From assembly GCA_030725715.1 (NCBI GenBank), contig JANRFG010000032.1, positions 90,906-154,905 on the forward strand: a stretch of 64,000 bases of DNA, given 5' to 3'. The stretch comes from Opitutales bacterium. GTDB lineage: Bacteria; Verrucomicrobiota; Verrucomicrobiia; Opitutales; UBA953. Each line of letters begins with the position of its first letter. The stretch's first letter is position 1. The notes beneath the pieces were generated by a model that worked only from the letters and a program-made list of their open reading frames with translations, did not search any database and had not been told where the DNA came from. The position numbers and the translations under genes were made by a program. This document shows positions 3,342 to 55,353 of the stretch, in pieces.

Positions 3342-4904
3342 TTACTTCTTGCCCTTAGGCGCGGCGGCCGTCACGGCCGGCCAGTCGTCGGTCCGGAAGG
3401 GGGAGGCGGGCAGGCCGGCGCCGTTGGCGAGGCTGTATTCCGGCCAATCCTTCCAGGCATAGCGGACGGCGGCAGGCTTGGCGACTTCCGCGCTGCGGAC
3501 GACGACGGTCTCGCCGACGATCTTCGCCTCAGCGGCCTTCCACTGCTTGTCTTCGCCGGCGATCTGGAAGCCCGTGAGGGCGCCGCCGTTCATGGACTTA
3601 AGTCCGCCGTTCGCATGCTTGAAGGAGACCGTGATCGCGTCGCCGCCGATCGTGGAGCCGGCCGGGAGCGGACCGCTGATCGCGGCGACGTCCTTGCCGT
3701 AGACCGTTCCGAGGGCCCAGAAGGAGAGGCGCTTGCCGACGTCCTGCTTGTTCTTCGGGTGGATGTCCTTGGCGTCGCCGATGTCGATCGTGATGGCCAT
3801 GCCGGTCTTCGGGAGTTCCAGCGTCTTCATCATCGATTCGCGGACACGGGGCCAGCCTTCGCCGCGCGAGGTGAAGTTCGGAAGCTGCACCCAGGCGAAG
3901 GGAACTTCATCGTTCCAGAGCGTGCGCCAGCTCGTGACGAGTTGGGAGAGCTGCTTGTGATAGAGGCCCGGGTTGCCGGCGTTGCCTTCGCCCTGATACC
4001 AGAGCATGCCGCGGAGCGTGTAGGGCACGAGGTTGACGACCTTGCCGTTGAAGAGACCGGCGGGTCCGCCCTTGAGCTTGCGCATGGCCAGCGGATTCCG
4101 CGGGGCCGGCGTCACGAAGGGGGTGCCGTTGGCCTTGGCTTTGGCGACGGCGGCTTTCCAAGTGGCCATCTGCCTGGCATGCAGTTCGCCGGACTTGCTT
4201 TCATCGAAGGCCAGGTAGTCCTTCATCTTGGCGTCGAAGTTAGCCTTCGTCTCGGGGTCGGAAGATTGGGCCTCGGCGGAGACCCAGGATTCGATGGGCG
4301 TACCGCCGACGGAGGTGTTGATCAGGCCGACCGGGACGCCGACTTCGCGGTGGATCTCGCGGCCGAAGAAGTAGAGCACCGCGGAGAAGCGGCCGACGGT
4401 ATCCGGCGTGCAGGCGCTCCACGCGCCTTTGCCTTCGGCGGCAGGGGAGGCTGAGTGGGTCGAGGATTCCTGATAATGACGGATGAGCGGGAAGTTCGCG
4501 GCGGCCTTCTCGGCTTCGAAGCGGTTCGAGGACTGGACGGTCATCGCCATGTTCGACTGGCCGGAGCCGAGCCAGACTTCGCCGACAAGCACGTCCTGTA
4601 CTTCGAGCTTATGGCCGTCCTTGCCCGTGACGGAAAGCGTGCGCGGTTCGGCGGAGGCCTTGAGGGCGTCGAGTTTCAGCATCCACTTGCCGTCGGCGTC
4701 CGCGGTGGCGGACTTGGACTGGCCGGCGAAGGCCACGGTCACCGTCTCGCCGGCGTCGGCCCAACCCCAGACGGCCACGGGCTTCTCGCGCTGGAGGACC
4801 ATGTGGTCCGCGATCGGCGCGGCCAGGCGGAAGCCGGCGGCGAAGAGGGAGGTGGCTCCGGCCAGGATGGCCAGGAGGGTGCAGAGCAGGCGAGGGGCGC
4901 GCAT
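3342..4904 (-). CDS. Sialate O-acetylesterase-like SGNH hydrolase (SASA family)
   Basis: 520 aa exported esterase, predicted to remove O-acetyl groups from sialic acids or other glycan sugars. Signal peptide MRAPRLLCTLLAILAGATSLFA. Residues ~25-100 form an Ig-like N-terminal region (DHMVLQREKPVAVWGWA) typical of this family. The nucleophile block GSGQSNM lies near residue 115, and GTPIESWVS and WYQGEGNA are further family landmarks. Length fits the family. It ends in AAPKGKK, one of many lysine tails in this window. It follows the DUF1501 gene but is separated from it by 202 bp holding an inverted hexad-repeat cassette. Function as an acetylesterase is a family-level inference; the acylated substrate is unknown. 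Confidence 0.9.
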   Translation of the reverse strand: MRAPRLLCTLLAILAGATSLFAAGFRLAAPIADHMVLQREKPVAVWGWADAGETVTVAFAGQSKSATADADGKWMLKLDALKASAEPRTLSVTGKDGHKLEVQDVLVGEVWLGSGQSNMAMTVQSSNRFEAEKAAANFPLIRHYQESSTHSASPAAEGKGAWSACTPDTVGRFSAVLYFFGREIHREVGVPVGLINTSVGGTPIESWVSAEAQSSDPETKANFDAKMKDYLAFDESKSGELHARQMATWKAAVAKAKANGTPFVTPAPRNPLAMRKLKGGPAGLFNGKVVNLVPYTLRGMLWYQGEGNAGNPGLYHKQLSQLVTSWRTLWNDEVPFAWVQLPNFTSRGEGWPRVRESMMKTLELPKTGMAITIDIGDAKDIHPKNKQDVGKRLSFWALGTVYGKDVAAISGPLPAGSTIGGDAITVSFKHANGGLKSMNGGALTGFQIAGEDKQWKAAEAKIVGETVVVRSAEVAKPAAVRYAWKDWPEYSLANGAGLPASPFRTDDWPAVTAAAPKGKK

Positions 4905-4956
4905 GCTTATCTAACATCTGAAATCCGCCTAGGTTCCGAGAATAGACCCGAGAACA

Positions 4957-5094
4957 AGGGGTAGGGGCAGGGGTAGGGGTAGGGGTAGTAATTACCCACC
5001 GCATAGCCTCAGCGATCTAGATAGGCGGGTCTGATATCCTGATGTGGACGTAATCTTTAGAACTACCCCAACCCCGACCCCTGCCCCTACCCCT
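4957..5094. repeat. Inverted-repeat cassette made of GGGGTA hexads
   Basis: Left arm 4957-4988 and right arm 5063-5094 are 32 bp each and reverse complements with only two mismatches by eye. Each arm is a run of about five GGGGTA-type hexads. The 74-bp spacer has no ORF I can support. It lies between the DUF1501 stop and the SASA-family start. The G-rich strand could form a G-quadruplex or the arms a long stem. The same hexad occurs at 18163-18190 and 50441-50474. Confidence 0.85.
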
Positions 5095-5106
5095 AAGTCG
5101 TGTCCA

Positions 5107-6528
5107 CTACGCCAACAACTTCTTCACGACATGACAGGGCTCGACGCCGGTGAGGCGGAAGTCCAGGCCGGCGTTGCGGAAGGTGAGGCGCTCGTGGTCG
5201 ACGCCCAAGCAGTGCAGGATGGTCGCCTGCAGGTCAGGCACGCGGACCTCGTCCTTGACGATATTGAAGCCCATCTCGTCGGTCTCGCCGATCGTCTGGC
5301 CGCCCTTGATGCCGCCGCCGGCCATCCACATGGAGAACGCCTGCGGGTGGTGGTCGCGGCCTTGGCTGCGGCCGAGCGAGACGCTGGATTCGACCATCGG
5401 GGTGCGGCCGAATTCGCCGCCCCAGACGACGAGCGTGCTGTCGAGCAGGCCGCGACGCTTGAGGTCCTTGACGAGCGCGGCGGAGGCCTTGTCGGTCTTG
5501 GCGCAGTTGTTGCGCACGTTGCCGGCGACGTCGCTGTGCGCGTCCCAGCCTTCGTTGTAGATGTTGATGAAGCGGACCCCGCGCTCGACCATGCGGCGGG
5601 CGAGCAGGCAGGCGCGCGCGAAGGACGGCACCTTCGGATCGCAGCCGTAGAGCTCGAGGGTCTCCTTGGTCTCGGAGGAGAGGTCCATCAGGTCCGGCGC
5701 CGAGGTCTGCAGGCGGTAGGCCATCTCGTAGTTGGCGATGCGCGTGGCGATCTCGCTGTCGCCGTCGAGGCGGAGACGGCGGTCGTTCATCGCGTTGATG
5801 AGTCCGATGGTGTCCTTCTGCGTCGCCGGGTCGATGCCCGCGGGCGTGGCGGTATTGAGGATCGCATCGCCGGTATTGCGGAAGCGGGTGCCGGCGTAGG
5901 AGCTCGGCAGGAAACCGCTGCTCCAGCAGGCCGCGCCGCCGCTGATGCCGGCGCCGGTGCTCATGACGACGAACGAAGGGAGGTCCTTGGCTTCCGAACC
6001 GAGGCCGTAAGTGATCCAGGAGCCCATGCTCGGCCGGCCCGGCTGAGAGAAGCCGGTGTTCATGTAGATCTGGGCCGGAGCGTGGTTGAACTGCGTCGTG
6101 CGGCAGGACTTCACGATGGCGATGTCGTCCGCGATCGAAGCGATGTGCGGGATCATCTCGGAGAGCTCGGCGCCGGACTGGCCGTGGCGGGCGAACTTGT
6201 AGCGCGGGCCGAGGACGGCGGCGTCGGGGCGGATGAACGCGTAGCGCTGGCCGTTGATGATCGAGGGCGGGAGCGGCTTGCCTTCCAGCTTGGCCAGCTC
6301 GGGCTTGTAGTCGAAGAGCTCGAGCTGCGACGGTGCGCCGGCCATGAAAAGGTGGATGACCGCCTTGGCTTTGGGCGGGTGGTGCGGCAGGCCGGACATC
6401 TGGCCCGAACCGGCGGCGGCGAGGCGGCCCATGGCGCCGTCGGCCACGAGGGAGGCGAGGGCGATCTTACCGACGCCGAGGGCGCATTCCTGGAAGAAGT
6501 ACCGGCGGGTGACGTTGGGGCGGGACAT
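5107..6528 (-). CDS. DUF1501 family exported protein (Tat-type signal)
   Basis: 473 aa. N-terminus MSRPNVTRRYFFQECALG is a twin-arginine-type signal followed by a hydrophobic stretch. The body carries DUF1501 landmarks: HLFMAGAPSQLELFDYKP near residue 60, GSWITYGLGSE near 165, and VVWGGEFGRTP followed by GRDHHP near 380-400. The family resembles the alkaline phosphatase/sulfatase fold and is nearly always encoded beside PSD1 (DUF1549/DUF1553) cytochromes in planctomycetes and verrucomicrobia. Biochemical role is unknown. Here the expected PSD1 partner (7036-10002) is upstream but separated by a repeat-bounded four-helix-bundle gene, unlike the second pair at 50615-55212. Confidence 0.92.
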   Translation of the reverse strand: MSRPNVTRRYFFQECALGVGKIALASLVADGAMGRLAAAGSGQMSGLPHHPPKAKAVIHLFMAGAPSQLELFDYKPELAKLEGKPLPPSIINGQRYAFIRPDAAVLGPRYKFARHGQSGAELSEMIPHIASIADDIAIVKSCRTTQFNHAPAQIYMNTGFSQPGRPSMGSWITYGLGSEAKDLPSFVVMSTGAGISGGAACWSSGFLPSSYAGTRFRNTGDAILNTATPAGIDPATQKDTIGLINAMNDRRLRLDGDSEIATRIANYEMAYRLQTSAPDLMDLSSETKETLELYGCDPKVPSFARACLLARRMVERGVRFINIYNEGWDAHSDVAGNVRNNCAKTDKASAALVKDLKRRGLLDSTLVVWGGEFGRTPMVESSVSLGRSQGRDHHPQAFSMWMAGGGIKGGQTIGETDEMGFNIVKDEVRVPDLQATILHCLGVDHERLTFRNAGLDFRLTGVEPCHVVKKLLA

Positions 6529-6538
6529 GGAAGGGGGA

Positions 6539-6573
6539 GATGAACGATGAAGGATGAACGATGGAGGATGAAA
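6539..6573. repeat. Heptad array, left arm of the four-helix-bundle cassette
   Basis: Five consecutive 7-mers read on the plus strand: GATGAAC, GATGAAG, GATGAAC, GATGGAG, GATGAAA. The array begins 11 bp upstream of the DUF1501 start codon and ends 8 bp from the stop of the four-helix-bundle gene. An inverted counterpart lies at 6985-7019. Confidence 0.85.
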
Positions 6574-6580
6574 CAGTGGC

Positions 6581-6976
6581 TCAGGATCTGTGGTGTAGTT
6601 CTACGCCGTGCATGAAGGTGCGTAGCTTGGCGATAAGTAGGCGAGTGTGATCCGCGAGTTCTGCGTGTCGTTGCTGTGAGACTAGGGACCCGGTCTCGCG
6701 AAGGGTGTCCAGATGATCCAGGGTTTCTTGGGCCGAGCCCAGCGCGTAGGTGAGATGGCGGAGGAACTCCATTTTGTAGCGGCGCTTACCGTATCCTTCG
6801 ACGATGTTGGCGCGAATGGACTTGGAGGAGCGTCTGACTTGAGAGCCGACTTCATGCATCTCAAATCGCGGAAGCTCTTCCAGGGTCATCCGATGCACCT
6901 CCACGGAGAGATCGCGAGCCAGCTGCCATACCTCCAATCGCTGATAGCCGGATGCGGTTTCCTGGGGCTCCTCCAT
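6581..6976 (-). CDS. Four-helix-bundle protein (S23 / 23S rRNA intervening-sequence protein family)
   Basis: About 131 aa from the chosen start (MEEPQETASGYQRL); the ORF extends to 7036 (151 aa), but those extra codons are heptad repeat DNA and encode low-complexity MNDEGWMMNDMG. Family landmarks: LEVWQLARDLSVEVHRMT near the start, VGSQVRRSSKSIRANIVEGYGK in the middle, and a long final helix. It is cytoplasmic, with no signal peptide. Homologs occur inside 23S rRNA intervening sequences and, as the Avd relative, in diversity-generating retroelements; neither is present here. Molecular function is unknown. It stands out as the only non-envelope gene in this block, and inverted heptad arrays surround it, so it is probably an inserted element. 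Confidence 0.9.
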   Translation of the reverse strand: MEEPQETASGYQRLEVWQLARDLSVEVHRMTLEELPRFEMHEVGSQVRRSSKSIRANIVEGYGKRRYKMEFLRHLTYALGSAQETLDHLDTLRETGSLVSQQRHAELADHTRLLIAKLRTFMHGVELHHRS

Positions 6977-6984
6977 TACTGCTC

Positions 6985-7019
6985 CCATATCATTCATCAT
7001 CCATCCCTCATCGTTCATC
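6985..7019. repeat. Heptad array, right (inverted) arm of the four-helix-bundle cassette
   Basis: Read on the minus strand, five 7-mers follow each other: GATGAAC, GATGAGG, GATGGAT, GATGAAT, GATATGG. This is the same unit as at 6539-6573 but in opposite orientation. It begins 17 bp after the PSD1 stop codon (TAA at 7038-7036) and overlaps the extended N-terminus of the four-helix-bundle ORF. Confidence 0.82.
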
Positions 7020-7035
7020 GTGTTTCTCATCTGCA

Positions 7036-10002
7036 TTACGGATGCACGATGCTTTCGTCGAGGTTGAGCACGGCGCGGGCGAGGGCGGTCCAGAGGTCCT
7101 TGTCGGCGACCTTGCGGGCGCGCTGCGCGTCGACGAAGGCCTGCATGGTCTTCGTCTCATCGGGCGCCGGCGGACGCGTGACGCAACGGCGGAGGATGAA
7201 GGCGATGCGGCCCGCGTCATCGGAGGCCGCCGTCATGGCCTTCGCGCCGAGGGCGCGGGCCGCTTCCATGAACATCTCGTCGTTGAGCAGGGTGAGGGCC
7301 TGGAGCGGGCTGTTCGAGACGTCGCGGCGGGCGATGCAGGCCTCGCCGGTGGGCGCGTCGAAGGTCGTGGCCATCGCGAACGGGGCGGTGCGCTTGATGA
7401 ACGTGTAGAGCGAACGGCGGTAGCGGTCTTCGCCTTCGCTGGGCTTCCACTCGATCCGGCCGTACGTGCCTTCGCTGGTCACGCTCGCGGGCTGGGGCGG
7501 GAAGACGCCTGGTCCGCCCATCTTGAACGAGATCAGGCCGGCGGCCTGCAGCGCGCCGTCGCGGATGACTTCGGCGTCGAGGCGGAAGCGGCTGCCACGG
7601 GCGAGCAGCAGGTTCTCGCGGTCCTTTTCGGCGAGCTCGGGCGTGACGCGCGAGGACTGGCGGTAAGTGGCGCTGGTCACGATCAGCCGGTGCAGCTTCT
7701 TCATCGACCAGCCGGTGCGCTGGAATTCGACGGCGAGCCAGTCAAGCAGCTCAGGGTGCGTCGGGGCTTCGCTCTGGTAGCCGAAGTCCTCGAGCGAGGC
7801 GACGAAGCCGCGACCGAAGAAGGCCTGCCACTGGCGGTTCACGGCCACGCGGGCGGTCAGGGGATTCTCGGGCGCGAAGAGCCAGCGGGCGAAGGTCAGG
7901 CGGTTGGCCGGGGCGTCCTTGGGCAGGCCGGGCAGGAAGGCGGGCACGCCGGGCTTCACTTCTTCGCGCGGGTTCAGGTATTCGCCGCGGTGGTAACGCA
8001 CGGTCGTCCGAGGATTGGAGGCGGGGCGCTCGCGCATGACGAGCGTGGGCTGGCCGCGCGGGATGCGCTTGCGCAGGGCGGCGAGGGCCTTGGCGTGCAC
8101 GGCGACTTCGGGCGCGGTCTCGAGGAAGCGCATGCGCAGGGCGTCGCGATCCTGCGGGGCGGCGCCGGCGAGCATGGCCTCGATCGCCGCGGGGTGACCG
8201 GTGGCGGTGGCCTGCTCGTCGGTGGTGACGGAGAGGCGGAAGTGGCCGAGCGAGCAGGAGAAGTGCTTTTCGAAGAGCATCTTCAGCGTCCAGCCGGCGG
8301 GGAGGTCGGTGGGCTTGGCGAAGCGGAAGACGGCCGTCTGACGCTGACCGTAGCCGCCCAGCACCTGCCAGCCGCTCGACATCTCGCCGTCGAGCGCGGC
8401 GGACGCGTTGTTCTTCTTCCGGGCGGCCTTGCCCTTGGCCTTGGCTTTGGCCTTCGGCGCGGCGGCGGCGTCACTGATACGGTCTTCCTCTTCGTCGTTG
8501 GTCGCGAAGGCTTCGCCGAATTCGAGACGCCGGCTGCCGTGCCAGGCTTGGAGTTCGCTGAGGAAGAAGCCGCCGAGCGGTCCTTCGTAGTTGGTCAGGC
8601 CGGGGCCGTCGTTGGGCAGGGAAGGGTGGTCGGCGACTTCGAGCCGGAGGGCGGTGACGCCTTTGTGGGCGCGATCGAAGGTGAGGTCATAGACGTCGCT
8701 CTTGCTGCTGTCGCCGCCGCCGAGGATGAAGCCGTCGGGCTGGACCTCGAGCTTCGGCATGGTGGTCTGGAGCTTGGCCGGGCGGAGCACTTCCCACTTG
8801 GAGGCCTTGGGGGCTTCGGCGGCGATCCAGGCGTCGACCTTGGGGTCGAGGGCGGCGACGCCGCCGGGGAACTTGCCGGGCAGGGACTCTTCAGCGGCGG
8901 CGATCTTGCGCGCGTGCTCGGCGACCTGCGCGGCGAGGTCGGCGGGCGGGATGTGGTAGGTCGGTTCGTCGGCGTTGTTCAGCAACGCCATGACGCCGAA
9001 GTAATCCGTGTGCAGGATCGGGTCATACTTGTGGGTGTGGCACTGCGCGCAGTTCATCGTCAGGCCCATCCAGGCCGCGCCGGTGGCGCCGACGCGGTCG
9101 ACCATCGCGTAGAAGCGGTATTCGTTAGGGTCGATGCCGCCTTCCTCGTTGAGCATCGTGTTGCGGTGGAAGCCGGTGGCGACATGGTCGTCGGGCGTGG
9201 CCCCGGGGAGGAGGTCGCCGGCGAGCTGCTTGATGCCGAACTGGTCGTAGGGCATGTCGGCGTTGAGCGCTTTCACGACCCAGTCGCGGTAAGCCCAGAT
9301 CGTGCGCGGGCGGTCCTTCTCGAAGCCGTTGGTGTCGGCGTAGCGGGCGAGGTCGAGCCACCGGCGGGCCCAGCGTTCGCCATAGCGCGGTGAGGCGAGC
9401 AGGCGGTCGACGAGTTTCTCGTAGGCGTCGGGCGACTTATCTTGGACGAAGGCGTCGGCCTCCTCGGGCGTGGGCGGCACGCCAGTGAGATCCAGCGTCA
9501 CGCGACGCACGAGGGCGTAGCGGTCGGCCTCGGGCGAAGGCTTCAGGCCGGCTTTCGCGAGGCGGTCGCGCACGAAGGCGTCGATCGGATGGACGCCGGC
9601 CTGCGGCACGGGCGCCTGCTTGGGGGCGGAGAAGGCCCAGTGAGGTTGATAGACGCCGCCTTCGGCGATCCAGGCGCGCAGGGTCGCCTTGTCTTTCGCG
9701 GACATCGGCTTCTTCGCCTCTGGCGGCGGCATGATGTCGTCCGGATCGTCGGAGAAGATGCGATGGATGACTTCGCTTTTGTCGGGCTGACCCGGGACGA
9801 TCGCGACTTCGCCGGACTTCCCTTTGCCGTAGGCGGATTCGACGAGGTCGAGGCGGAGTTTTCCTTTGCGTGAATGCTCGTCCATGCCGTGGCACGCGAA
9901 GCAGTGCTGGGCCAGGATCGGCCGGACCTCGCGGTTGAAGTCGACGGCGGACGCGGTGGCGGCGGACGCCAGAAGCAGGAATGCGGACGGAAAGCGCGGC
10001 AT
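7036..10002 (-). CDS. PSD1/DUF1549-DUF1553 cytochrome protein
   Basis: About 988 aa, exported. The ORF track gives 1510 aa, but the part above 10002 is antisense to a plus-strand hydrolase; the ATG at 10002 gives the signal peptide MPRFPSAFLLLASAATASA. Residues ~20-110 are the PSCyt1 domain with heme site CFACHG and MPPPEAKKP. DUF1549 follows (LDLTGVPPTPEEADAF, WLDLARYADTNGFE) with a second heme-type site CAQCHTHKYDP. A central linker carries AKAKAKGKAARKKN, and the C-terminal half is DUF1553 (LTARVAVNRQWQAFFGRGF, SATYRQSSR, SPLQALTLLNDE). These proteins are paired with DUF1501; enzymatic activity is unproven. First gene of the leftward block and divergent from the gene at 10135. Confidence 0.93.
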   Translation of the reverse strand: MPRFPSAFLLLASAATASAVDFNREVRPILAQHCFACHGMDEHSRKGKLRLDLVESAYGKGKSGEVAIVPGQPDKSEVIHRIFSDDPDDIMPPPEAKKPMSAKDKATLRAWIAEGGVYQPHWAFSAPKQAPVPQAGVHPIDAFVRDRLAKAGLKPSPEADRYALVRRVTLDLTGVPPTPEEADAFVQDKSPDAYEKLVDRLLASPRYGERWARRWLDLARYADTNGFEKDRPRTIWAYRDWVVKALNADMPYDQFGIKQLAGDLLPGATPDDHVATGFHRNTMLNEEGGIDPNEYRFYAMVDRVGATGAAWMGLTMNCAQCHTHKYDPILHTDYFGVMALLNNADEPTYHIPPADLAAQVAEHARKIAAAEESLPGKFPGGVAALDPKVDAWIAAEAPKASKWEVLRPAKLQTTMPKLEVQPDGFILGGGDSSKSDVYDLTFDRAHKGVTALRLEVADHPSLPNDGPGLTNYEGPLGGFFLSELQAWHGSRRLEFGEAFATNDEEEDRISDAAAAPKAKAKAKGKAARKKNNASAALDGEMSSGWQVLGGYGQRQTAVFRFAKPTDLPAGWTLKMLFEKHFSCSLGHFRLSVTTDEQATATGHPAAIEAMLAGAAPQDRDALRMRFLETAPEVAVHAKALAALRKRIPRGQPTLVMRERPASNPRTTVRYHRGEYLNPREEVKPGVPAFLPGLPKDAPANRLTFARWLFAPENPLTARVAVNRQWQAFFGRGFVASLEDFGYQSEAPTHPELLDWLAVEFQRTGWSMKKLHRLIVTSATYRQSSRVTPELAEKDRENLLLARGSRFRLDAEVIRDGALQAAGLISFKMGGPGVFPPQPASVTSEGTYGRIEWKPSEGEDRYRRSLYTFIKRTAPFAMATTFDAPTGEACIARRDVSNSPLQALTLLNDEMFMEAARALGAKAMTAASDDAGRIAFILRRCVTRPPAPDETKTMQAFVDAQRARKVADKDLWTALARAVLNLDESIVHP

Positions 10003-10134
10003 GGGGGCGGGGGTGAACGGCCGGGGGTGTGACCGACCAAGATAAGACACTCTAGACCGTCCGGGGTTGCGAGCAATTAGCAGGCGGGGTTTGGCGGTTG
10101 CGGGCCCATGACAGGCGGCTAATCTCGCGATTTC
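10003..10134. promoter_or_regulatory. Divergent intergenic region
   Basis: These 132 bp separate the only divergent gene pair in the window, so both promoters should lie here. I see an AT-richer patch around 10040-10053 but no convincing -35/-10 pair in either direction. The assignment rests on gene orientation alone. Confidence 0.4.
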
Positions 10135-11193
10135 GTGCCCCGCTTCTCCCTCATTTTCTGTCTTATCGCCATAGGGGTGTCCGGCGCCGACGGCCCGACG
10201 TCGGGCGATGGTTCGCAGCAGAAATGGCGGCTGGCGCTGGGCTCCCCGAGGTCGACTTTCGGTCAGGCTGGTCCGGCAGAGCGGGTCGAGTCCTTCGACA
10301 CTCCGGATTTCCGGGCGCAGCTGTTTCGCCAGCGTACCGGTCCGGAGACCTGGCAGCGGATTCTCATCCTGAAGCCTCTGCGGCTCGAGGGCCGGACCGC
10401 CGGAGTCGTCGTGCCGTTCTACGACCCCGATCGGATGTGCGGTTACGATCTGCGGACGAAGCAACGGCTCGGACCGGAGCGGAATACGGCTTTCTTCGGT
10501 CTGCATCTCGTGCGGCAGGGCTACGTCGTCGCCGCGGTCGAAGCTTATCCGTTCAACCTGCTGACGCCGGAGGAGCAGAAGGCGAGCAAGGGCGGGATGG
10601 GCGTCTGGCGTGACGCCGCGGCCAAACTCGCCCGACAGGAGCCCGGATGGACGGGCATGGGTAAGCTCACCCATGACACGCTCTTGGCGGCCGATCTCCT
10701 GGCGGCGGATGCGCAGGTCGACTCGGCTCGTCTCGCGGTGATGGGGCATTCGCTCGGCGGCAAGATGGCCTTCTACGCCGGCTGCCTGGATCCGCGCTTC
10801 AAGGCGATCATCGCGAGTGATTTCGGCCTGGCGTGGGATTCTTCCAATTGGGGCGACGCTTGGTATTTCGGTGACAAGCTGAAGGCCATGCGCGCGGACG
10901 GTCTTTCCCAGGAACAGCTGCTCGCCTTCTATGCTCCGCCGTTCTTCCTGATTGCCGGACAATACGACAGCGAGGCGACGTGCGGCCCTTTGTTGGACGC
11001 GGCCCGCAAGACACGGGAGCTCACGGGTCGGGCGGGCGGTATCGAGATCTTCGACCACCATTCCGGACACCAGCCGACGTGGCCCTCGTTGAAGGCCGCC
11101 TATGTCTGGCTGGCTCGGCGGATGGACATGCCTGCTCCCGACTTCGGGCACCTCGACGCGCTCGCCCGCGACCAAGCGAAGGCCGCCAAGTAG
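10135..11193 (+). CDS. Exported alpha/beta hydrolase (dienelactone hydrolase/acetylesterase-like)
   Basis: 352 aa, the only plus-strand gene. The start is GTG; an in-frame ATG at 10108 is followed at once by a stop. The N-terminus MPRFSLIFCLIAIGVSGADG is a short signal peptide. The nucleophile elbow GHSLGG lies near residue 204, a likely acid region near DSEATCG (~281), and the terminal histidine in DHHSGHQPTW (~315-325). It ends in DQAKAAK. Probable role is ester cleavage on a glycan, in line with the other esterases here, but substrate is unknown. Its stop is 4 bp from the convergent sulfatase stop, with no terminator between, so transcripts probably overlap. Confidence 0.87.
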   Translation: MPRFSLIFCLIAIGVSGADGPTSGDGSQQKWRLALGSPRSTFGQAGPAERVESFDTPDFRAQLFRQRTGPETWQRILILKPLRLEGRTAGVVVPFYDPDRMCGYDLRTKQRLGPERNTAFFGLHLVRQGYVVAAVEAYPFNLLTPEEQKASKGGMGVWRDAAAKLARQEPGWTGMGKLTHDTLLAADLLAADAQVDSARLAVMGHSLGGKMAFYAGCLDPRFKAIIASDFGLAWDSSNWGDAWYFGDKLKAMRADGLSQEQLLAFYAPPFFLIAGQYDSEATCGPLLDAARKTRELTGRAGGIEIFDHHSGHQPTWPSLKAAYVWLARRMDMPAPDFGHLDALARDQAKAAK

Positions 11194-11197
11194 GCGC

Positions 11198-12622
11198 TCA
11201 CTTCTTTTTCTTCTTCGCGCCGGCTTTGCCGGATGCCGCGCCGAGCGCGGGGCCGTTGTCGGCCGGCAGGGAGCGATGCCAGGCGAGCACCGCGGACGTG
11301 AGGCGCGCGACGACGGCCGGTTCGCGGGCCGCGAGGTCGGTCGTTTCGCCCTGATCCTTGGCCAGGTCGTACAGGAGCGGCTTCGAGCCATCGTACTCAC
11401 AGAGGAGTTTCCAATCGCCCTCGCGGATCGCGAGGTCGGGCTGAGGGGTCGCCAGCGCGGGCGCCCATGTCTTCCGGTCGGGTGGGCGCCGCCAGCAGAG
11501 CGACCTTGGGGGGACGGGGGAAGTGCCGCCCAGCAGGGTCGCCGATAGGTCGACGCCGTCGAGTCCATCGGGGGCAGGCAGCCCGGCCATTCGGGTCAGC
11601 GAGGGAGCCAGGTCCATGGCGGCGAAGACCGAGGCAGCGTCGGTGCCGCCGATCCGTTCCTTAGCCATGCGCCCAGGAGCCCAGACGATGAGCGAAGAAC
11701 GGAGGCCGCCTTCGAAGATCTGCGTCTTGCTGCCGCGGAATGGCCCGGCGCTGCCGGCGCCGGGTTCGGGTCCGTTATCAGAGCAAATGATGAAGACCGT
11801 GTTGGCACGGAGAGCGGGGTCGGCGCGGACGCGTTCGAAAAGTCGGCCGAGTTGGCGATCCATCTCCTCCAGCACGGCGAGGTAGATCCGGTGTTTTTCC
11901 GGCGACCATTTCTCCAGCGGAGGGAAGTAGGGGCTGTGGACGTCGTCGGGCCAGAGGTCGACGTAGAAGGGCTGACCTTTCGCCGCGGCGGCGTCGATGA
12001 ACTTCAGGGCGGCATCCGCGTAGCCGGTCGTGATCTCGGTGCGGTTCATCCAGGTCACCGGGCCGCCGAGGCGTTCGGCGTCGGCCCAGATCTTCTTCGG
12101 CTCCTGGTCGCCGGGCTTGCGCGTGAGCGGGAGGAGTTTCGGCCCCATCCCTTCGAAGTTGGTGAGCGATGTATCGTAACCGTAGGCCGTGATCGCGGGG
12201 GCGTCGTCGACGTCGCGCTGGCCGCCGAGATGCCATTTGCCGAAGTGTCCGGTGGCGTAGCCGCCGGCCTGCAGGGTACGCGCGAGCGAAGGCGCCCGGG
12301 GGTCGAGCCACTGGGCGTTGCCTTTGGCTTCGTTGGCCGCCCGGAACTCGAGATAGGAGTTGATCCGCCAGCGCTGCGGATATTGTCCGGTGACGAAGGC
12401 GCACCGCGAAGGGGAGCAGATCGGTGAGTTGACGTAGAACTGCTCGAAGCGCAGGCCCTCGGCGGCCAGCCGGTCGATGTTCGGGGTCTTCGCCTCCGTA
12501 TTCCCGAAGCAGGAGAAGTCGCCCCAGCCCATGTCGTCGATGAGCACGAAGACGAAGTTGGGCTTCTTCGGTTCCGCGGCGCCCAGGAGCAGGGCGGAGG
12601 CGAGCAGGCAGAGGAAGCGCAT
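11198..12622 (-). CDS. S1 family sulfatase (arylsulfatase A-like)
   Basis: 474 aa. Signal peptide MRFLCLLASALLLGAAEP. Metal-binding IDDMGWGD starts near residue 28; formylglycine motif CSPSR near residue 69; GKWHLGG near 135. SDNGPEPGAG and FRGSKTQIFEGGLR are the usual C-terminal metal and fold landmarks. The 'WLDPRAPSLARTL' segment matches the sulfatases at 28708 and 60062, so these three form one subgroup. It ends in AGAKKKKK, an extreme lysine tail. Four base pairs separate it from the upstream sulfatase (12626-13969), so the two are co-transcribed. A maturation enzyme must convert Cys-69 to formylglycine, and none is encoded here. Confidence 0.94.
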   Translation of the reverse strand: MRFLCLLASALLLGAAEPKKPNFVFVLIDDMGWGDFSCFGNTEAKTPNIDRLAAEGLRFEQFYVNSPICSPSRCAFVTGQYPQRWRINSYLEFRAANEAKGNAQWLDPRAPSLARTLQAGGYATGHFGKWHLGGQRDVDDAPAITAYGYDTSLTNFEGMGPKLLPLTRKPGDQEPKKIWADAERLGGPVTWMNRTEITTGYADAALKFIDAAAAKGQPFYVDLWPDDVHSPYFPPLEKWSPEKHRIYLAVLEEMDRQLGRLFERVRADPALRANTVFIICSDNGPEPGAGSAGPFRGSKTQIFEGGLRSSLIVWAPGRMAKERIGGTDAASVFAAMDLAPSLTRMAGLPAPDGLDGVDLSATLLGGTSPVPPRSLCWRRPPDRKTWAPALATPQPDLAIREGDWKLLCEYDGSKPLLYDLAKDQGETTDLAAREPAVVARLTSAVLAWHRSLPADNGPALGAASGKAGAKKKKK

Positions 12623-18162: not shown

Positions 18163-18190
18163 TAGGGGTAGGGGTGGGGGTAGGGGTGGG
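18163..18190. repeat. GGGGTA-type hexad array
   Basis: Runs of TAGGGG/TGGGGG units in direct tandem, 11 bp upstream of the esterase start at 18152. It is the same unit as the arms at 4957-5094 and the array at 50441-50474. Here no inverted partner is present; an octad array follows at 18202. Confidence 0.8.
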
Positions 18191-18201
18191 ATTATTACAT
18201 C

Positions 18202-18233
18202 TGGCCAACCGTTCAACGGATCAACCGGTCAAC
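18202..18233. repeat. Octad array (YGGYCAAC type)
   Basis: Four 8-mers in tandem: TGGCCAAC, CGTTCAAC, GGATCAAC, CGGTCAAC. It ends 12 bp from the sulfatase stop at 18246. The same type occurs on the opposite strand at 58491-58522, inside another sulfatase gene. Confidence 0.8.
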
Positions 18234-19874: not shown

Positions 19875-19924
19875 GGGAGTGAGGGCAAATTACGGGCTAA
19901 GGGAGGAGGAGGGCAAAGACGGAA

Positions 19925-19960
19925 ATGGGGTCAGACCCCATTAATAGGGTCTGACCCCAT
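19925..19960. repeat. Palindromic repeat, copy 1 (GGGGTCAGACCC stem)
   Basis: ATGGGGTCAGACCC and its exact reverse complement form a 14-bp stem around the 8-nt loop CATTAATA. It sits in the 107-bp gap between the stop of the DUF1080-sulfatase fusion and the start of the next sulfatase. The core, including the loop, is identical to the copy at 40790-40831. It resembles a REP-type element; a terminator role is possible but no T-run follows on the minus strand. Confidence 0.85.
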
Positions 19961-19981
19961 TATGGCCGGAGAGTTCGACGC

Positions 19982-33008: not shown

Positions 33009-34433
33009 TTATTTGGCGGCGGGTTTCCTGGCGGCGGGACTCAGGGGCTTAGGAAACTTGGGTTCGAGGCCGAGCCGACGGCAGTCGGCGTCCATTTCAT
33101 CGCTCCAAGCCGCATAGAGCTTCTTCAGCTCGGCCAGCTTGGCGGGCTCTTCGGTGGCGAGGTCGCGCTGTTCGCTGAGGTCGGTGGCGAGGTTGAAGAG
33201 CCGGTCTTGCGCGGGCTTTTGTCTGGGGCCGGGAGCGGCATCCCCTTCGGTGCTGTGGACGTATTTCCAGTCACCCTGACGCGCGGCGTAGTTGTTGCTC
33301 ATCGTGCGGCTGCGCCAGAACAGGACGTCGTGCGGTGCGCCCGAGCGGACGCCTTTGATGAAGGGGAGCAGGTCCACGCCGTCGATGGCAGAGGCGTCGG
33401 CGCCGGCGGCCGCGAGCGCCGTGGCGCTGATGTCGAAGCTGATCGCAGGCTTCGCGTAGGTCGTGCCGGGCGCGATGACGCCGGGCCACTGCATGAGCAT
33501 GGGCACGCGGATACCGCCTTCGAAAGTCTCGCACTTCGAGCCGCGCAGGGGCGTGTTGCGTGAGCCGTTGACGGCATTGCGCGTCGTCGGGCCGCCATTG
33601 TCATTGGTGAAGACGATGAGCGTGCGGTCGAACTCGCCCGTCTGCTCCAGTTTGGCGATCACCAGGCCCACGGCGTCATCCATCGCGCTGAGCATGGCCG
33701 CATAGGTCTGGCGTTTGGGTTCGGTGATGCCGGGGAAGCGGGCCTTGTATTTCTCGGTCGCTTGCAAGGGCGTATGCACGGCGTTGAAGGCGAGGTAGAG
33801 GAAGAAGGGCTTTGCGTCCTTGGTTCGTGGTTCTTCGTTCTTGGTCGGGGAGCATCGCTCGACGAAGGCCGCCGCCTCTTCGCCGAAGGCGTCGGTCAGG
33901 TAGCGCTGTTCTTTCACTGGATCGCGATTGCGCAGGATGGGGGCGTTGTACTCGCCTTTTCCGTTCGGTTGGATGATGTATTGATGCCCGCCTCCGACGA
34001 AGCCGAAGAACTCATCGAAACCACGGTCCACCGGCGTGAAGCCCTGGGTCGAGCCGAGGTGCCACTTGCCGACCATGCCCGTCACGTAGCCCGCCGCTTT
34101 GAGCCGCTGCGGCAACGTATTGGCCTGCGCCGGCAGCGGCCCGCCGAGGTCTTCGATGCCGTAGCGATGCTGATACCGGCAGCTCAACAAAGCGGCGCGC
34201 GTCGGGGTGCAGAACGAACCGTTCGCATACGCATCGGTGAAGCGCACCCCTCGTGACGCCAGACGATCGATGTGCGGCGTCGGAATGTCTTTGCCGCCGT
34301 GGGCGCCGATGTCGGCATAGCCCATGTCGTCGGCGAGAATGACGATGATGTTGGGTTTCCGTAGGTCAGCGGCATGGAGCGCGGCCAGAGGCGCGAGGAG
34401 GAGAGTGGTGAGGACGACCAGGGGATTTTTCAT
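33009..34433 (-). CDS. S1 family sulfatase with in-frame heptad-repeat insertion
   Basis: 474 aa, signal peptide MKNPLVVLTTLLLAPLAALHA. LADDMGYADIGAHGG metal site; CTPTR near residue 75, followed by AALLSCRYQ where LTGRYQ is usual; VGKWHLGSTQGF second signature; FTNDNGGPTTRNAVNG. Between AAFVER and KPFFLYLAFNAVHTPL, where homologs usually have a few residues, it has CSPTKNEEPRTKDA. The DNA there is four 7-mers in tandem (33817-33844), so a repeat array has been absorbed as a surface loop without breaking the frame. Tail SPAARKPAAK. Eight base pairs after the 34442 sulfatase. Confidence 0.93.
   Translation of the reverse strand: MKNPLVVLTTLLLAPLAALHAADLRKPNIIVILADDMGYADIGAHGGKDIPTPHIDRLASRGVRFTDAYANGSFCTPTRAALLSCRYQHRYGIEDLGGPLPAQANTLPQRLKAAGYVTGMVGKWHLGSTQGFTPVDRGFDEFFGFVGGGHQYIIQPNGKGEYNAPILRNRDPVKEQRYLTDAFGEEAAAFVERCSPTKNEEPRTKDAKPFFLYLAFNAVHTPLQATEKYKARFPGITEPKRQTYAAMLSAMDDAVGLVIAKLEQTGEFDRTLIVFTNDNGGPTTRNAVNGSRNTPLRGSKCETFEGGIRVPMLMQWPGVIAPGTTYAKPAISFDISATALAAAGADASAIDGVDLLPFIKGVRSGAPHDVLFWRSRTMSNNYAARQGDWKYVHSTEGDAAPGPRQKPAQDRLFNLATDLSEQRDLATEEPAKLAELKKLYAAWSDEMDADCRRLGLEPKFPKPLSPAARKPAAK
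33817..33844. repeat. Heptad array inside a sulfatase gene
   Basis: Plus-strand units TCCTTGG, TTCGTGG, TTCTTCG, TTCTTGG; on the coding strand CCAAGAA, CGAAGAA, CCACGAA, CCAAGGA. Unit length is the same as in the four-helix-bundle cassette but the sequence family differs. It encodes part of the loop PTKNEEPRTKD. Confidence 0.8.
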
Positions 34434-40789: not shown

Positions 40790-40831
40790 ATAAAGGGGTC
40801 AGACCCCATTAATAGGGTCTGACCCCTTTAT
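40790..40831. repeat. Palindromic repeat, copy 2 (GGGGTCAGACCC stem)
   Basis: ATAAAGGGGTCAGACCC and its exact reverse complement form a 17-bp stem around the loop CATTAATA. Core and loop equal those of copy 1 at 19925-19960; the outer stem differs but still pairs, meaning the flanks covary. It fills most of the gap between the FG-GAP lipoprotein stop and the sulfatase start at 40778. Confidence 0.87.
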
Positions 40832-50383: not shown

Positions 50384-50440
50384 GGGGTGGGGTGGTGAAG
50401 ATACAGTGCAAAGGTGCAAAAGTGCAAAGGTGGAAGCAAG

Positions 50441-50474
50441 TAGGGGTTGGGGTAGGGATAGGGGTAGGGGTAGG
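50441..50474. repeat. GGGGTA-type hexad array
   Basis: TAGGGG, TTGGGG, TAGGGA, TAGGGG, TAGGGG, TAGG in direct tandem, in the centre of the composite cassette. Same unit as 4957-5094 and 18163-18190. G-quadruplex formation is possible on the plus strand. Confidence 0.8.
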
Positions 50475-50488
50475 AATGCTGAGAAATG

Positions 50489-50516
50489 AAAAGGGCTAGG
50501 GGGTTAGCCTAGCCCT
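50489..50516 (-). terminator. Intrinsic-terminator-like hairpin after the DUF1501/PSD1 operon
   Basis: On the minus strand AGGGCTAGG pairs with CCTAGCCCT around a 7-nt loop, and TTT follows directly. Placed about 100 bp beyond the DUF1501 stop codon, it is the best intrinsic terminator candidate in the window. Confidence 0.55.
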
Positions 50517-50584
50517 GTCTCTGTATTAACTGTCACTTTTGCACCTTTGCACAGGCCGCAGGCCGATTTGCACTTTTGCACATA

Positions 50585-50614: not shown

Positions 50615-52060
50615 CTAAGCGACCAACGCCTTGACGACCTTGGTCGGGAGCACCCCGGTGAGCTTCTGGTCCAGTCCCTGGTATTTATAAGTGAAGCGTT
50701 CGTGGTCGTAACCGAGCAGGTGGAGGACCGTGGCGTGGAAGTCGTTGATCGGAAGCGGGTCTTTGACGATATTGTAGCTGAATTCGTCGGTCTCGCCGTA
50801 GATCTGGCCGCCCTTGGCGCCGCCGCCGGCCATCCACATGGAGAAGCAGCGCGGGTGGTGGTCGCGGCCGTAGTTCTCCTTGGTGAGTCCGCCCTGGCTG
50901 TATATCGTGCGTCCGAACTCGCCGCCCCAGACGATGAGCGTGTCGTCGAACATCCCGCGCTGCTTGAGGTCCTCGATGAGGGCGTGGCAGGGTTGGTCGA
51001 TGTCCTTGCACTGGCTGGGCATGCGGCCGTTGACGTTCGAGTGGTGGTCCCAGTTGTTGTGGTAGATCTGGACGAAGCGGACGCCGCGTTCCACGAGGCG
51101 GCGGGCCATCAGCACGCTGTTGGCGAAGCTGCCGCGCTTACGGGCTTCTTCGCCGTAGAGCTTGAAGATATGCTCCGGTTCCTTGGTGAGGTCGGTCAGT
51201 TCGGGCACCGAGGCCTGCATGCGGAAGGCCATCTCATACTGCTTGATGCGGGTATGGGTCTCCGGGTCGCCCACGGTCTCGTAATTGAGGCGGTTGAGCT
51301 GGTTGATGCCGTCGATGGTCTGCTTACGCAGGTCGTCGGGCACGCCGGGCGGGTTGTTGATGAACAGAATCGGGTCGCCCTTGCTGCGGAACGAGACGCC
51401 GGCGTGTTCGCCCGGCAGGTAGCCGCTGGACCACAGGCGGCTGGAGATCGCCTGTTCCTGTTCGCGTTTGGACGGGGTCGCGATGAGCACCACGAAGTTC
51501 GGCAGGTTGTCGTTCTCGGAGCCGAGGCCGTAGGAGGCCCAGGAACCCAGGCAAGGACGACCGGTGATCTGGTTGCCCGTCTGCATGGCGCAGATCGCCG
51601 GCTCGTGATTGATTGCCTCGGTGTTGAGGGAGCGCATCCAGCAGATCTCGTCGGCGTGCTTGCCGAGGTTCGGCAGCAGGTCGGAGTTGAGCCACATGCC
51701 GCACTGGCCGAACTGGGAGAAGTTATACTTCGACGGCGCGATGGGGAAGCGGGCCTGGCCGCTGGTCATCGTCGTCAGGCGCTGGCCGTTGCGGATGCTC
51801 GCGGGCAGGTCCTTGTCATACATTTCCTTCATCTTCGGCTTGTAGTCGAAGAGATCCATCTGGGCGGGCCCGCCGACCATGTGGAGGTAGATGACGCGCT
51901 TGGCCTTGGGCAGGTGCTGCGTGCTGATCGCGCCCGGCGCGGCGTGGGCCATCGTGCGGCCGAGGAGGCTGGTGAGCGCGGCGGCGCCGAGGGCGTTGGC
52001 GCCCGTACCGAGGAAGCGGCGACGGGTCTGGAGGGTGTTCCACTCGTGGAGGATGGACAT
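50615..52060 (-). CDS. DUF1501 family exported protein (Tat-type signal), second copy
   Basis: 481 aa. MSILHEWNTLQTRRRFLGTGANALG carries a twin-arginine signal. DUF1501 landmarks: KRVIYLHMVGGPAQMDLFDYKP near residue 55, GSWASYGLGSENDNLPNFVVL near 175, VRFVQIYHNNWDHH, and IVWGGEFGRTIYSQGGLTKENYGRDHHPRCFSMWMAGGG near 385-420. The PSD1 partner ends 5 bp upstream, the arrangement normally seen for this family and the reference against which the disrupted pair at 5107-10002 can be judged. Function unknown. Downstream of it lies the composite repeat cassette. Confidence 0.92.
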   Translation of the reverse strand: MSILHEWNTLQTRRRFLGTGANALGAAALTSLLGRTMAHAAPGAISTQHLPKAKRVIYLHMVGGPAQMDLFDYKPKMKEMYDKDLPASIRNGQRLTTMTSGQARFPIAPSKYNFSQFGQCGMWLNSDLLPNLGKHADEICWMRSLNTEAINHEPAICAMQTGNQITGRPCLGSWASYGLGSENDNLPNFVVLIATPSKREQEQAISSRLWSSGYLPGEHAGVSFRSKGDPILFINNPPGVPDDLRKQTIDGINQLNRLNYETVGDPETHTRIKQYEMAFRMQASVPELTDLTKEPEHIFKLYGEEARKRGSFANSVLMARRLVERGVRFVQIYHNNWDHHSNVNGRMPSQCKDIDQPCHALIEDLKQRGMFDDTLIVWGGEFGRTIYSQGGLTKENYGRDHHPRCFSMWMAGGGAKGGQIYGETDEFSYNIVKDPLPINDFHATVLHLLGYDHERFTYKYQGLDQKLTGVLPTKVVKALVA

Positions 52061-52065
52061 GGCGA

Positions 52066-55000
52066 TTATTTGTTAAGGACTTCGTCGAGGTTGAGGAGCT
52101 GGCTGCAGACCATCGTCCAGGCGGCCAGTTCGGGGCGGGGGAGTTTTTCGTCGGCCTTGGCGTCGCCGACTCCGAGCAGGGCGGCGGCGTCGTCGGGCTT
52201 GGCGACGTAGTGGGCGCGCAGTTTGCCGAGGCTGTCGGTCAGGACCGCCGTCTCGGCCGGCTTGAGCGGACGGCAGAGCGTGCGCCGGGCGGCCGCGTTG
52301 AGGCGGACGACGTCATCGCCGGCGTCCTGCAGGGTGTGCTGCGCGAGGATGCGCGCGGCTTCGACGTACTGCGGGTCATTGAGCATCACGAGCGCCTGCA
52401 ACGGGGTGTTGGTGCGATCGCGACGAACGCAGGTGACTTCGCGGGACGGAGCGTTGAAGAGGTCGAGGCTCGCGGGCGGGGCCATGCGGCGCCAGTAGTT
52501 GTAGAGCGAACGGCGGTAGAGGTTCTCGCCCTGGTCGGGCTTGTAGACCTGGATGCCCACGCCGACGACTTCCCAGATGTTCTCCGGTTGGTAGGGCTTG
52601 GTGCCCGGGCCGCCCATGCGGGGTGAGAGCGTGCCGCTGACCGCGAGGGCCTGGTCACGGAGCATCTCGGCGTCCATGCGGAAGCGGGGGCCGCGGCTGA
52701 GGAGGGCGTTGTCGCGGTCCTTCTCGACCTTCTCCTTGGTGGTGAGAGCGGCCTGACGGTAGGTCGCACTGGTGAGGAGCTGCTTGTAGAAACGCTTCAC
52801 ATCCCAGCCATGCGTGCGGAAGTCGATCGCCAGCCAGTCGAGGAGCTCAGGGTGGGAGGGTAGGCTGCCCATGATGCCGAAGTCTTCGGAGGTCTTGACG
52901 AGTCCGGTGCCGAAGAGCTCCTGCCACATGCGGTTGACCGTCACGCGGGTGGTCAGCGGATTGGCGGCGCTGACGATCCACTTCGCCAGGCCGAGGCGAT
53001 TGCGGGGGGCGTCGGCGGGGAGCTTGCCGAGGGCGGCGGGAATCTCCGCGGGGACGGCGTCGCCTTTCTTGTCGTAGGCGCCGCGGATCAGGATGTTGGC
53101 CATCGCGGGGCTATCCATCTTCTCTTCCTGGACGTGGGTGAGCGGGCTGCGGCCACGGATGGCCATCTGCTCGGCGGTCAGCTTCGTGACGTTGTTCGCG
53201 GCGAGCTTGAACGGCTCGTGGCGGTTGAGGAGGAAGTGTTCGCGCAGCGCGTCTTTCTGCTGGGCGTTGGGCTTGCCGGCCAGCGACTGGCGGAGCGTGG
53301 CCAGCTTCGAGAGCGTCGTGACTTCGCTCGGGGCGAGGGCTCGGGAGTAAAGGAAGACGTCCTGGATCGAGCCATGGAACGGTTCGCCCTGGCTGCGCTG
53401 ACCGATGCGCGTCGGCGTGGCGGCCTGGGTGTCCGTCTTGAGTTTGTCGATCTCCGCGCGGGTCTCGGCGAGGACGCCGTTGACGTAGATCTTCACGCCG
53501 GCGGCCTTGCCGCTGCCGTCATACGTCATGAACACATGCTGGTAGGCGGTGTTGATGGCATTGCGTCTGGTCGTGACCTTGATGGCGTCATCGGGCCACT
53601 TGCTGATGATGTAGACGCCGAGGTTGCGGCCAGCTTGGAAGAAGTTCCAGCCTTGCGCGCCCTTGGGGTCATCCATGCGCGCGATGATCGCTCCCGTGCC
53701 TTCGAGCTTGTCGGCCTTGATCCAGGCGCCGGCCGAGAAGGCCTGCTTGGTGCGGAAGTTGCCCGCCTCGCCGATCACGAGGTGGGAACCCTTCTTGAAG
53801 ACGGGAGCCGGACCGGTCTTGCCGTTCTTCATCCAGGCGATCGGCTCGCCGGCGGCGGTCGTGCCGGCGGGCAGTCCCTTGCCGTCGTTGAGGGCGAGGC
53901 GGGCGACGAGGTCCTTGGCCGGGATGTCGGCGTCGAGGTCGGCGGGCTTGGCCTTGGCGAACCACTGTTCGAAGAGCGGCGTGCCGAGCTTACGGGCCGC
54001 GGCGACCTGCTCGTTGCCCTTGGCGATTTCGCCAGGGAGGGCGTTCCAGCGGGGGCGGTCGGCATCGGCAGGCAGGTAGATGACCGGGCCGCGGCCGTCC
54101 TTCACGTTGCCGTCGAGTCCGCCCTGGGTCGTGTTCCGGAAGAAGGCGGACATCGCGTAGAAGTCCTTCTGCGAGAACGGGTCGAACTTATGGTCGTGGC
54201 ACTGGGCGCAGTTGGTGGTCAGGCCGAGGTAGACCCAGCCCATGGTCTGCACGCGGTCGGCGGCGTAGTTGGCGAGGTTCTCTTCGACGATCGTGCCGCC
54301 TTCGTTGGTCGTCGGGTTGCAGCGCTGCAGGCCGGTGGCGATGCGCTGTTCCTCGGTCGGGTTGGGGAGCAGGTCGCCGGCGAGCTGTTCGACGGTGAAC
54401 TGGTCGAAGGGCTGGTTGCGATTGAAGGACTTCACGACCCAGTCGCGGTAAGGCCACATCTCGCGATAGGCGTCGAAGTGCAGGCCGTGCGAGTCGGCGT
54501 AGCGGGCGGCGTCGAGCCAGTAGCGGGCGCGGTGTTCGCCGTAGGCCGGCAGGGCCATCAGTTCGTCGATGAGCGCGGAGAGCTGCGCGTCGCTGAGGCG
54601 GCTGCCGTCCTTGGGCAGGTGCTTCGTCAGCAGGGCGGGCGAGGGCGGCAGGCCGGTGACGTCGAGGCTGACGCGGCGGATGAGCGTGGCGGCGTCGGCT
54701 TCAGGCGCGGGCTTAAGGCCGGCGGCGTCGAGCTTGGCCCGGACGAATTGGTCGATCGGGTTCTTGGCCCAGTTGTCATCGGAAGTCTTCGGTAGCGGCG
54801 CCTTCTGCGGGGCGACGAGCGACCAGTGCGGCTGCCACGGCGCGCCCTGTTCGATCCAGCGACGCACCAGCGCGATCTCAGCGGGCTTGAGCTTCTTGTG
54901 GGTTTCGGGCGGAGGCATGATCTCATCCTCGTCCGTGGAGAGCATGCGCTGGTAGAGGGTGCTTTGGTCAGCCTTGCCCTTGATGATAGTCGGCGGCTCT

Positions 55001-55212: not shown

Positions 55213-55353
55213 GGGAAGGGGTCTGCTAGAATTAAAGAGAGAACCAGCCGGGGGGAAGCCGGATTGGGTGGTAAACGACATAAGACAGGTCGAAGCGGGC
55301 GGATGTTCCCCGCCTAGGTATCATTCCTGCCGATCGTCGGCCCCGCAGAGGCC

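Follow-up and report, generated by a model that had tools for sequence, protein, structure and literature searches.

The S23 cassette and its host flanks

A gene of the S23 family was found between a DUF1501 gene and a PSD1 gene, enclosed by two inverted tandem arrays. Coordinates refer to the window, i.e. the whole stretch of 64 kb that was analysed. The source genome comprises 1.93 Mb and is 95% complete; its own locus is called the target in the following. These features were assigned to it:

5107..6528, minus strand: DUF1501 gene, host flank (PF07394, E 1.8e-152)
6537..6572, minus strand: 3' (downstream) arm, C-rich on the coding strand, about five heptads, inverted with respect to the 5' arm (repeat detection)
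6581..6988, minus strand: S23 (23S_rRNA_IVP) four-helix-bundle gene (PF05635, E 4.9e-24; dN/dS 0.07-0.10 against the orthologs L097 and L104)
6989..7028, minus strand: 5' (upstream) arm, G-rich on the coding strand, about five GATGNNN heptads (repeat detection; paired with the 3' arm in the MFE fold of the RNA)
7036..10076, start approximate, minus strand: PSCyt1-PSCyt2-PSD1 gene, host flank (PF07587, PF07583, PF07635)

Tandem arrays of the GATGAAC type (6539-6572, period 7, 4.9 copies) and of the ATCATTC type (6989-7019, period 7, 4.4 copies) were detected. The arms 6537-6572 and 6993-7028 are inverted to each other over 36 nt with 81% complementarity, alternatively over 31 nt with 84%. The S23 gene reached 85 bits with Pfam PF05635 (cut-off 33.8) and 84.9 with TIGR02436 (cut-off 24). 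The initial annotation had described inverted heptad arrays around an S23-family gene, and repeat detection, complementarity and the PF05635 match bear this out. The term heptad is correct at the target, but units of 6, 8 or 10 nt are found in other lineages.

An exact fit of the cassette between its flanks had also been described. The PSD1 stop indeed overlaps the first ATG of S23 at 7036, and DUF1501 starts at 6528. The mechanical S23 ORF covers 6581-7036(-) with 151 codons. A start at 7036 would put the upstream arm into translation, and the in-frame ATG at 6988 touches the inner edge of this arm. Hence, 6988 or 6976 is the likelier start, and the upstream arm probably lies outside the translated region. 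For PSD1 the mechanical ORF (7036-11568) is an over-extended frame. The equivalent PSD1/DUF1501 pair of the window (50615-55281) has an intergenic gap of 5 bp (52061-52065), as had been reported.

No transposase was found between the target arms, where S23 is the sole gene. The reported absence of reverse transcriptase and rRNA was confirmed: no rRNA was detected at 4500-8000 of the window or in eight other S23 loci, and the genome gave no reverse transcriptase match. Neither was a known RNA family detected at the cassette. Its classification as a 23S rRNA IVS was rejected, because it is positioned between two protein genes and not inside a 23S rRNA gene. Its termini are complementary with a stem around the ORF, as is demanded of an IVS. 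In the MFE fold of the single strand the two arms form a long stem enclosing the ORF (z -2.9).

This long stem of the whole cassette RNA would also suit a non-autonomous retroelement that is copied via stem-loop RNA, with S23 taking the part of Avd beside a reverse transcriptase in trans. Avd of diversity-generating retroelements (PDB 4DWL) has a related four-helix-bundle fold, and PF05635 resembles it in sequence and structure comparison (PMC10053308). However, no RVT_1 is present in the source genome at 95% completeness (no PF00078 match), and template and variable repeats, which belong to diversity-generating retroelements, are absent here. We regard such an origin as very improbable. Since no reverse transcriptase was found, the unit, if it moves, borrows host enzymes or has an unknown chemistry.

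The source genome contains four S23 genes, each inside inverted heptad arrays with a unit of its own (GAGTATC, GCGGTTA/G, GATGAAC and GATGACA). A survey of all S23 genes of the genome had been suggested earlier; with arrays at four of four, none is array-less. Because all four genes show the pattern and a triplet-shuffled control of 445 kb contained zero inverted array pairs, the pattern goes beyond chance. One of the four genes is broken by an assembly gap. In the fourth gene (L004:1740-1840) a run of N is followed by a duplicated C-terminal piece, probably an assembly artefact.

Arms and S23 proteins across genomes

S23 was present in 62 of 95 relatives and in 145 of the 189 sampled genomes of the phylum. 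A pattern scan yielded 80 loci in Bacteroidota, Nitrospirota, Planctomycetota, Acidobacteriota, Cyanobacteriota, Clostridia, Proteobacteria, candidate phyla and Methanophagales archaea. Inverted arms were identified at 161 of 192 S23 loci (genus, phylum and distant phyla including archaea); about one sixth of the S23 loci lack clear arms. No S23 was found in 50,697 phage records. Pairs or triplets of S23 genes about 2 kb apart are common in other genomes (G081:C65, G056:C8, G143:C59, G158:C10, G182:C2).

For the arm score, the upstream 450 bp of each locus were matched against the reverse-complemented downstream 450 bp, and swapped loci served as controls. At order level, real pairs had a median of 21.75, compared with 9.5 after swapping loci and 10.5 in direct orientation; 19 of 22 S23 sequence clusters of the order exceeded the 95th percentile of the swaps. 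In a set of 100 loci belonging to other families and phyla, the median was 17 versus 9, with 83 loci above the 95th and 67 above the 99th percentile of the swaps. A score of at least 14 was reached by S23 genes in 75 of 100 cases and by other ORFs of the same loci in 3 of 56 (5%; Fisher p 2e-18).

Arms selected solely by inverted matching, not by periodicity, have sharp periods of 7 and 8 nt: self-identity reached 0.59 at lag 7, 0.58 at lag 14 and 0.41 at lag 8, whereas most other lags gave about 0.25. The median number of units is 4.9 in the upstream and 4.6 in the downstream arm, alike for 7-mers and 8-mers, the lower tail of copy numbers being cut by the minimum length that detection requires. 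The copy numbers of the two arms of a locus are uncorrelated. Polarity is convergent, with the G-rich strand pointing inward from both ends, at 154 of 161 loci (89 of 96 representatives); the opposite polarity occurs in 7 of the 96.

The more alike two S23 proteins are, the more alike are the arms of their loci (Mantel, 0 of 999 permutations), an effect that is clear above about 55% identity. The period as a property of the S23 clade was not significant (Mantel, 171 of 999). S23 is under strong purifying selection: seven ortholog groups, that of the target among them, gave dN/dS of 0.04-0.10. The charge of the domain is mildly basic (median +1.5; target -2). According to PMC10053308, which cites Lin 2006 for it, Xcc0516 consists of "five four-helix bundles". 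The nearest solved structures, 2gsc and 2rld, contain five chains each.

Variation of the unit is concentrated in certain columns (0 of 500 permutations reached the observed value). The same columns vary in both arms (index 1.92 versus 1.0), to which common descent of the arms could contribute. In a hand count of the target against L097 and L104, 2 of 40 positions of the core GATG were changed, compared with 9 of 29 in the spacer (p 0.006). Silent sites of S23 are near saturation between the target and L104 (dS 1.4). At the sequence level, the array unit is composed of a conserved core and a variable spacer. This contrast speaks for recognition of the repeated core over exact pairing of the arms. 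For concerted evolution of the arms within orthologous sites, self pairing was no better than cross pairing between close orthologs and is thus uninformative.

Replication slippage could also generate arrays, which template switching at hairpins would then invert; S23 would merely sit by accident in unstable junctions. The uncorrelated copy numbers of the two arms agree with this, as do the orthologous arrays at the target junction, which vary in length and spacer letters. Slippage does not explain, however, why arrays flank S23 but only 5% of other ORFs, why they follow the S23 sequence across loci and keep their core, and why they are rare in relatives without S23. Moreover, slippage alone cannot fix one polarity in 89 of 96 representatives, and we consider this explanation improbable.

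The protein has five subunits and each array about five units; together with the core and spacer pattern and the covariation of arm and protein, this suggests one unit per subunit. Each S23 pentamer would recognise one array such that roughly every subunit is matched by one unit, much as the TRAP ring does with its repeated triplets. TRAP, whose ring binds consecutive copies of a short motif separated by variable spacers, serves as a working analogy only; its fold is unrelated to S23, it is an 11-mer and its motif is a triplet.

Gene junctions and elements without S23

The target junction was compared in 14 orthologous loci with DUF1501 sequences 92-100% identical. S23 with GATGAAC arms is found in the target, L097 and L104 only (3 of 14). 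Conservation at this site in all relatives, which would have spoken against a cassette, is thus not given. The other 11 junctions are occupied either by arrays of different families or by short remnants (47-162 bp). S23-less inverted arrays consist of GATGACA in L100, L105 and L107 and of GTTCTTG in L101-L103, and remnants were detected in L106 and L109. Hybrid mini-elements with one arm of the GATGACA type and the other of the GAGTATC type occur in L098, L099 and L108, as if two families had recombined or inserted side by side. The junction states are out of step with the DUF1501 tree. The arrays and remnants at the 11 junctions indicate a turnover hotspot and not a single insertion into a virgin pair. 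Hence, of the proposed insertion into a contiguous pair one part stands, the unit being missing at most orthologous junctions, but no relative has a clean contiguous pair here.

At the aminotransferase/FabV junction nine genomes carry S23 with GCGGTTA arms in an intergenic region of 763-788 bp. Elsewhere in the genus this junction is a clean empty site of 110-134 bp without arrays, or contains mini-elements or solo arrays. As an independent case, S23 with GGGAGTA arms lies between nrdB and nrdA on plasmid pNe_5 of Nostoc edaphicum, and the same gene pair on a Calothrix plasmid (85% identity) is a clean empty site with 40 bp of intergenic DNA. Filled and empty sites differ by small replacements at both junctions. 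No target-site duplication is visible at the FabV and nrdB-nrdA sites, the empty site of the latter being only about 85% identical.

Arrays without S23 were also found in the source genome. A strict scan for inverted array pairs covered 445 kb of it:

4957..5095, no strand: S23-less mini-element with inverted AGGGGT arrays, arms of 33 nt, 94% complementary, 72 nt between them (strict scan, RNA fold z -7.3)
18163..18233, no strand: solo intergenic arrays, TAGGGG (period 6) beside CAACCGTT (period 8) (repeat detection)
50406..50552, no strand: S23-less mini-element with inverted 8-nt GTGCAAAG arrays and a GTAGGG/AGGGGT array inside (looser scan)
C31:4295-4385: S23-less inverted array pair, GATGACA (strict scan)
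C31:34915-34998: S23-less inverted array pair, AGGGGT (strict scan)
C31:62246-62370: S23-less inverted array pair, GTTGGCCA (strict scan)

The RNA of the mini-element at 4957-5095 forms a very stable hairpin. Matches to microRNA families of Rfam at 4957-5094 were dismissed; they are below the gathering score and merely reflect the hairpin. The AGGGGT unit is that of an S23 locus group in sister species (L071, L074, L081, L087, L094).

Two S23-bearing genomes contained 34 intergenic 7/8-nt arrays in 845 kb, whereas 700 kb from six S23-less genomes with a completeness of at least 80% contained 1; the lower GC content of several S23-less genomes is a possible confounder. One nearly complete S23-less relative is almost array-free. 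The S23-less assembly G052 (63% complete) gave seven array matches, including one homopolymer run; the missing part of this assembly may contain its S23.

Two arrays of the window are located in sulfatase genes. One of the GTTCTTG type (33819-33845) lies inside the coding sequence 33009-34433 and is translated as NEEPRTKD; its unit also flanks S23 in L092 and makes up the mini-elements of L101-L103. The other, an 8-nt GTTGGCC array (58490-58521) at the 5' end of the gene, is apparently translated N-terminally (TGQPANWST), and the start codon of this gene is probably mis-set.

These distributions bear on the possibility that nothing moves, with S23 as a TRAP-like regulator and the arrays as its RNA or DNA binding sites, both for autoregulation and in regulon hairpins elsewhere. 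About five units for a pentamer, the core and spacer pattern and the location of arrays between genes agree with it. In addition, the arms adjoin the likely start codon, and a stem formed by them can sequester this codon. But, unlike regulatory sites, the array family at one junction switches or is lost among close species although the genes persist, and mini-elements carry units whose S23 family is missing from the same genome, as with AGGGGT in the window. Autoregulation also needs no convergent arms on both sides of the gene. A purely regulatory role is considered unlikely.

Mobility and relation to known systems

The co-occurrence of S23 and arms, the match of arm and S23 families, presence and absence at junctions, S23-less mini-elements and solo arrays could all be demonstrated by comparing sequences. 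With a probability of roughly 0.57, 6537-7028 is a copy of a widespread unit with S23 between convergent arrays, which behaves like a mobile element over evolutionary time and whose protein is proposed to be an array-reading pentamer. For the mobile repeat-bounded unit of the initial annotation, this means that S23 plus inverted arrays is the unit, but its autonomous mobility is something we infer.

In this proposal, recognition of both ends, or of their single-stranded RNA or DNA stem, would protect or synapse them. S23 would act in trans on S23-less copies. New copies would enter gene junctions via replication, repair or recombination enzymes of the host, the weakest step. Host enzymes are proposed for the copying because neither a transposase nor a reverse transcriptase nor a target-site duplication could be detected.

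Among the loci compared, recent duplication of an S23-only cassette to a second site was not detected. In the genus, every S23 lineage is confined to one site, and S23 proteins of different sites are at most about 74% identical. Calothrix PCC 7103 is the sole case of near-identical multicopy S23, with five ISL3-family elements of 2.58 kb (L351:65-2661; L348, L349, L350, L352). They have terminal repeats of about 94 bp and heptad arms of the GGCAGAG type directly inside the IS ends. These copies were rejected as S23-only hops, because they ride the IS; the S23 unit seems to have been captured by it. Likewise rejected as an S23-only duplication were two plasmid copies of Calothrix NIES-22, whose common segment is longer and includes an integrase. 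One-site lineages, the missing S23-only duplicate and the IS-borne Calothrix copies imply that movement, if real, is slow or uncaught.

The Calothrix PCC 7103 element, with S23 and heptad arms inside its ends, is also what would be expected if the cassettes were relics or passengers of ordinary IS, the arms being decayed terminal repeats and the transposase lost. Against this, the arms in many phyla leave no space for a transposase (median spacing 441 nt), and the S23 protein is under purifying selection. The chance of an IS origin is therefore judged as very slight.

The nearest known systems to the proposed S23 unit are the rRNA IVSs with an S23 ORF of Coxiella and Leptospira. They likewise consist of one S23-family ORF and inverted repeats forming a long stem, are patchy in distribution and suspected to be selfish or mobile (PMC4990558). 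Mobility with a factor encoded by the ORF was proposed for them long ago (PMC4990558). In contrast, the target unit lies outside rRNA, its arms are tandem arrays of 6-10 nt with unit families that follow the protein, and its group includes S23-less mini-elements and solo arrays in trans. Furthermore, the ORF is strongly purified by selection here, whereas the Coxiella protein is seemingly not made. The rRNA IVSs could be the rRNA-located members of this larger group, the common design being a long stem whose loop carries the S23 ORF.

Tandem intergenic heptamers are also known as cyanobacterial STRRs, GGGAATC repeats of Xanthomonas and TAACTGA repeats of Beggiatoaceae. In Xanthomonas, GGGAATC forms 70-75 convergent inverted pairs (PMC4692102), which is the anatomy of the mini-elements. 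These heptamers are at relatively conserved positions and were judged unlinked to mobile elements (PMC4692102), which counts against mobility. The same paper is silent on XCC0516 (PMC4692102). The reports on Xanthomonas, Nostoc and Beggiatoaceae name no protein partner and do not mention S23.

No description of S23 joined with flanking arrays was found in the open-access papers searched. We rate S23 with arrays as a new kind of object with the rRNA IVS as nearest relative; the mechanism is still a proposal. A more far-reaching reading, put forward tentatively and at clearly less than even odds, would be an undescribed class of mobile elements in Bacteria and some Archaea. Its pentamer would read both ends and mobilise mini-elements in trans without a classical transposase, many heptamer repeats would be non-autonomous copies, and the rRNA IVSs would be its rRNA branch. 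With S23, two old puzzles gain a concrete partner: the heptamer repeats between genes, and the question of what rRNA IVSs do and where they come from. PF05635 has a structure and no known function, and the arrays offer each S23 protein a ligand that can be tested, its length and sequence being defined. Real mobility would make this a class of DNA or RNA elements that lacks a recognised transposase.

REP/BIME sequences with RAYT (TnpA_REP) are similar insofar as short intergenic inverted repeats are possibly served in trans by one protein-coding relative. They differ from the S23 units in that the S23 gene lies within the arms and has no HUH/Y1 domain, S23 being no known nuclease. In addition, the arms here are tandem arrays, whereas REPs are single palindromes with GTAG/CGTC tags. 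In the window, intergenic REP-like palindromes of the AAAGGGGTCAGACCCC type were observed at 40790-40831 and 19924-19962, the sequence of which is unrelated to the heptad arrays.
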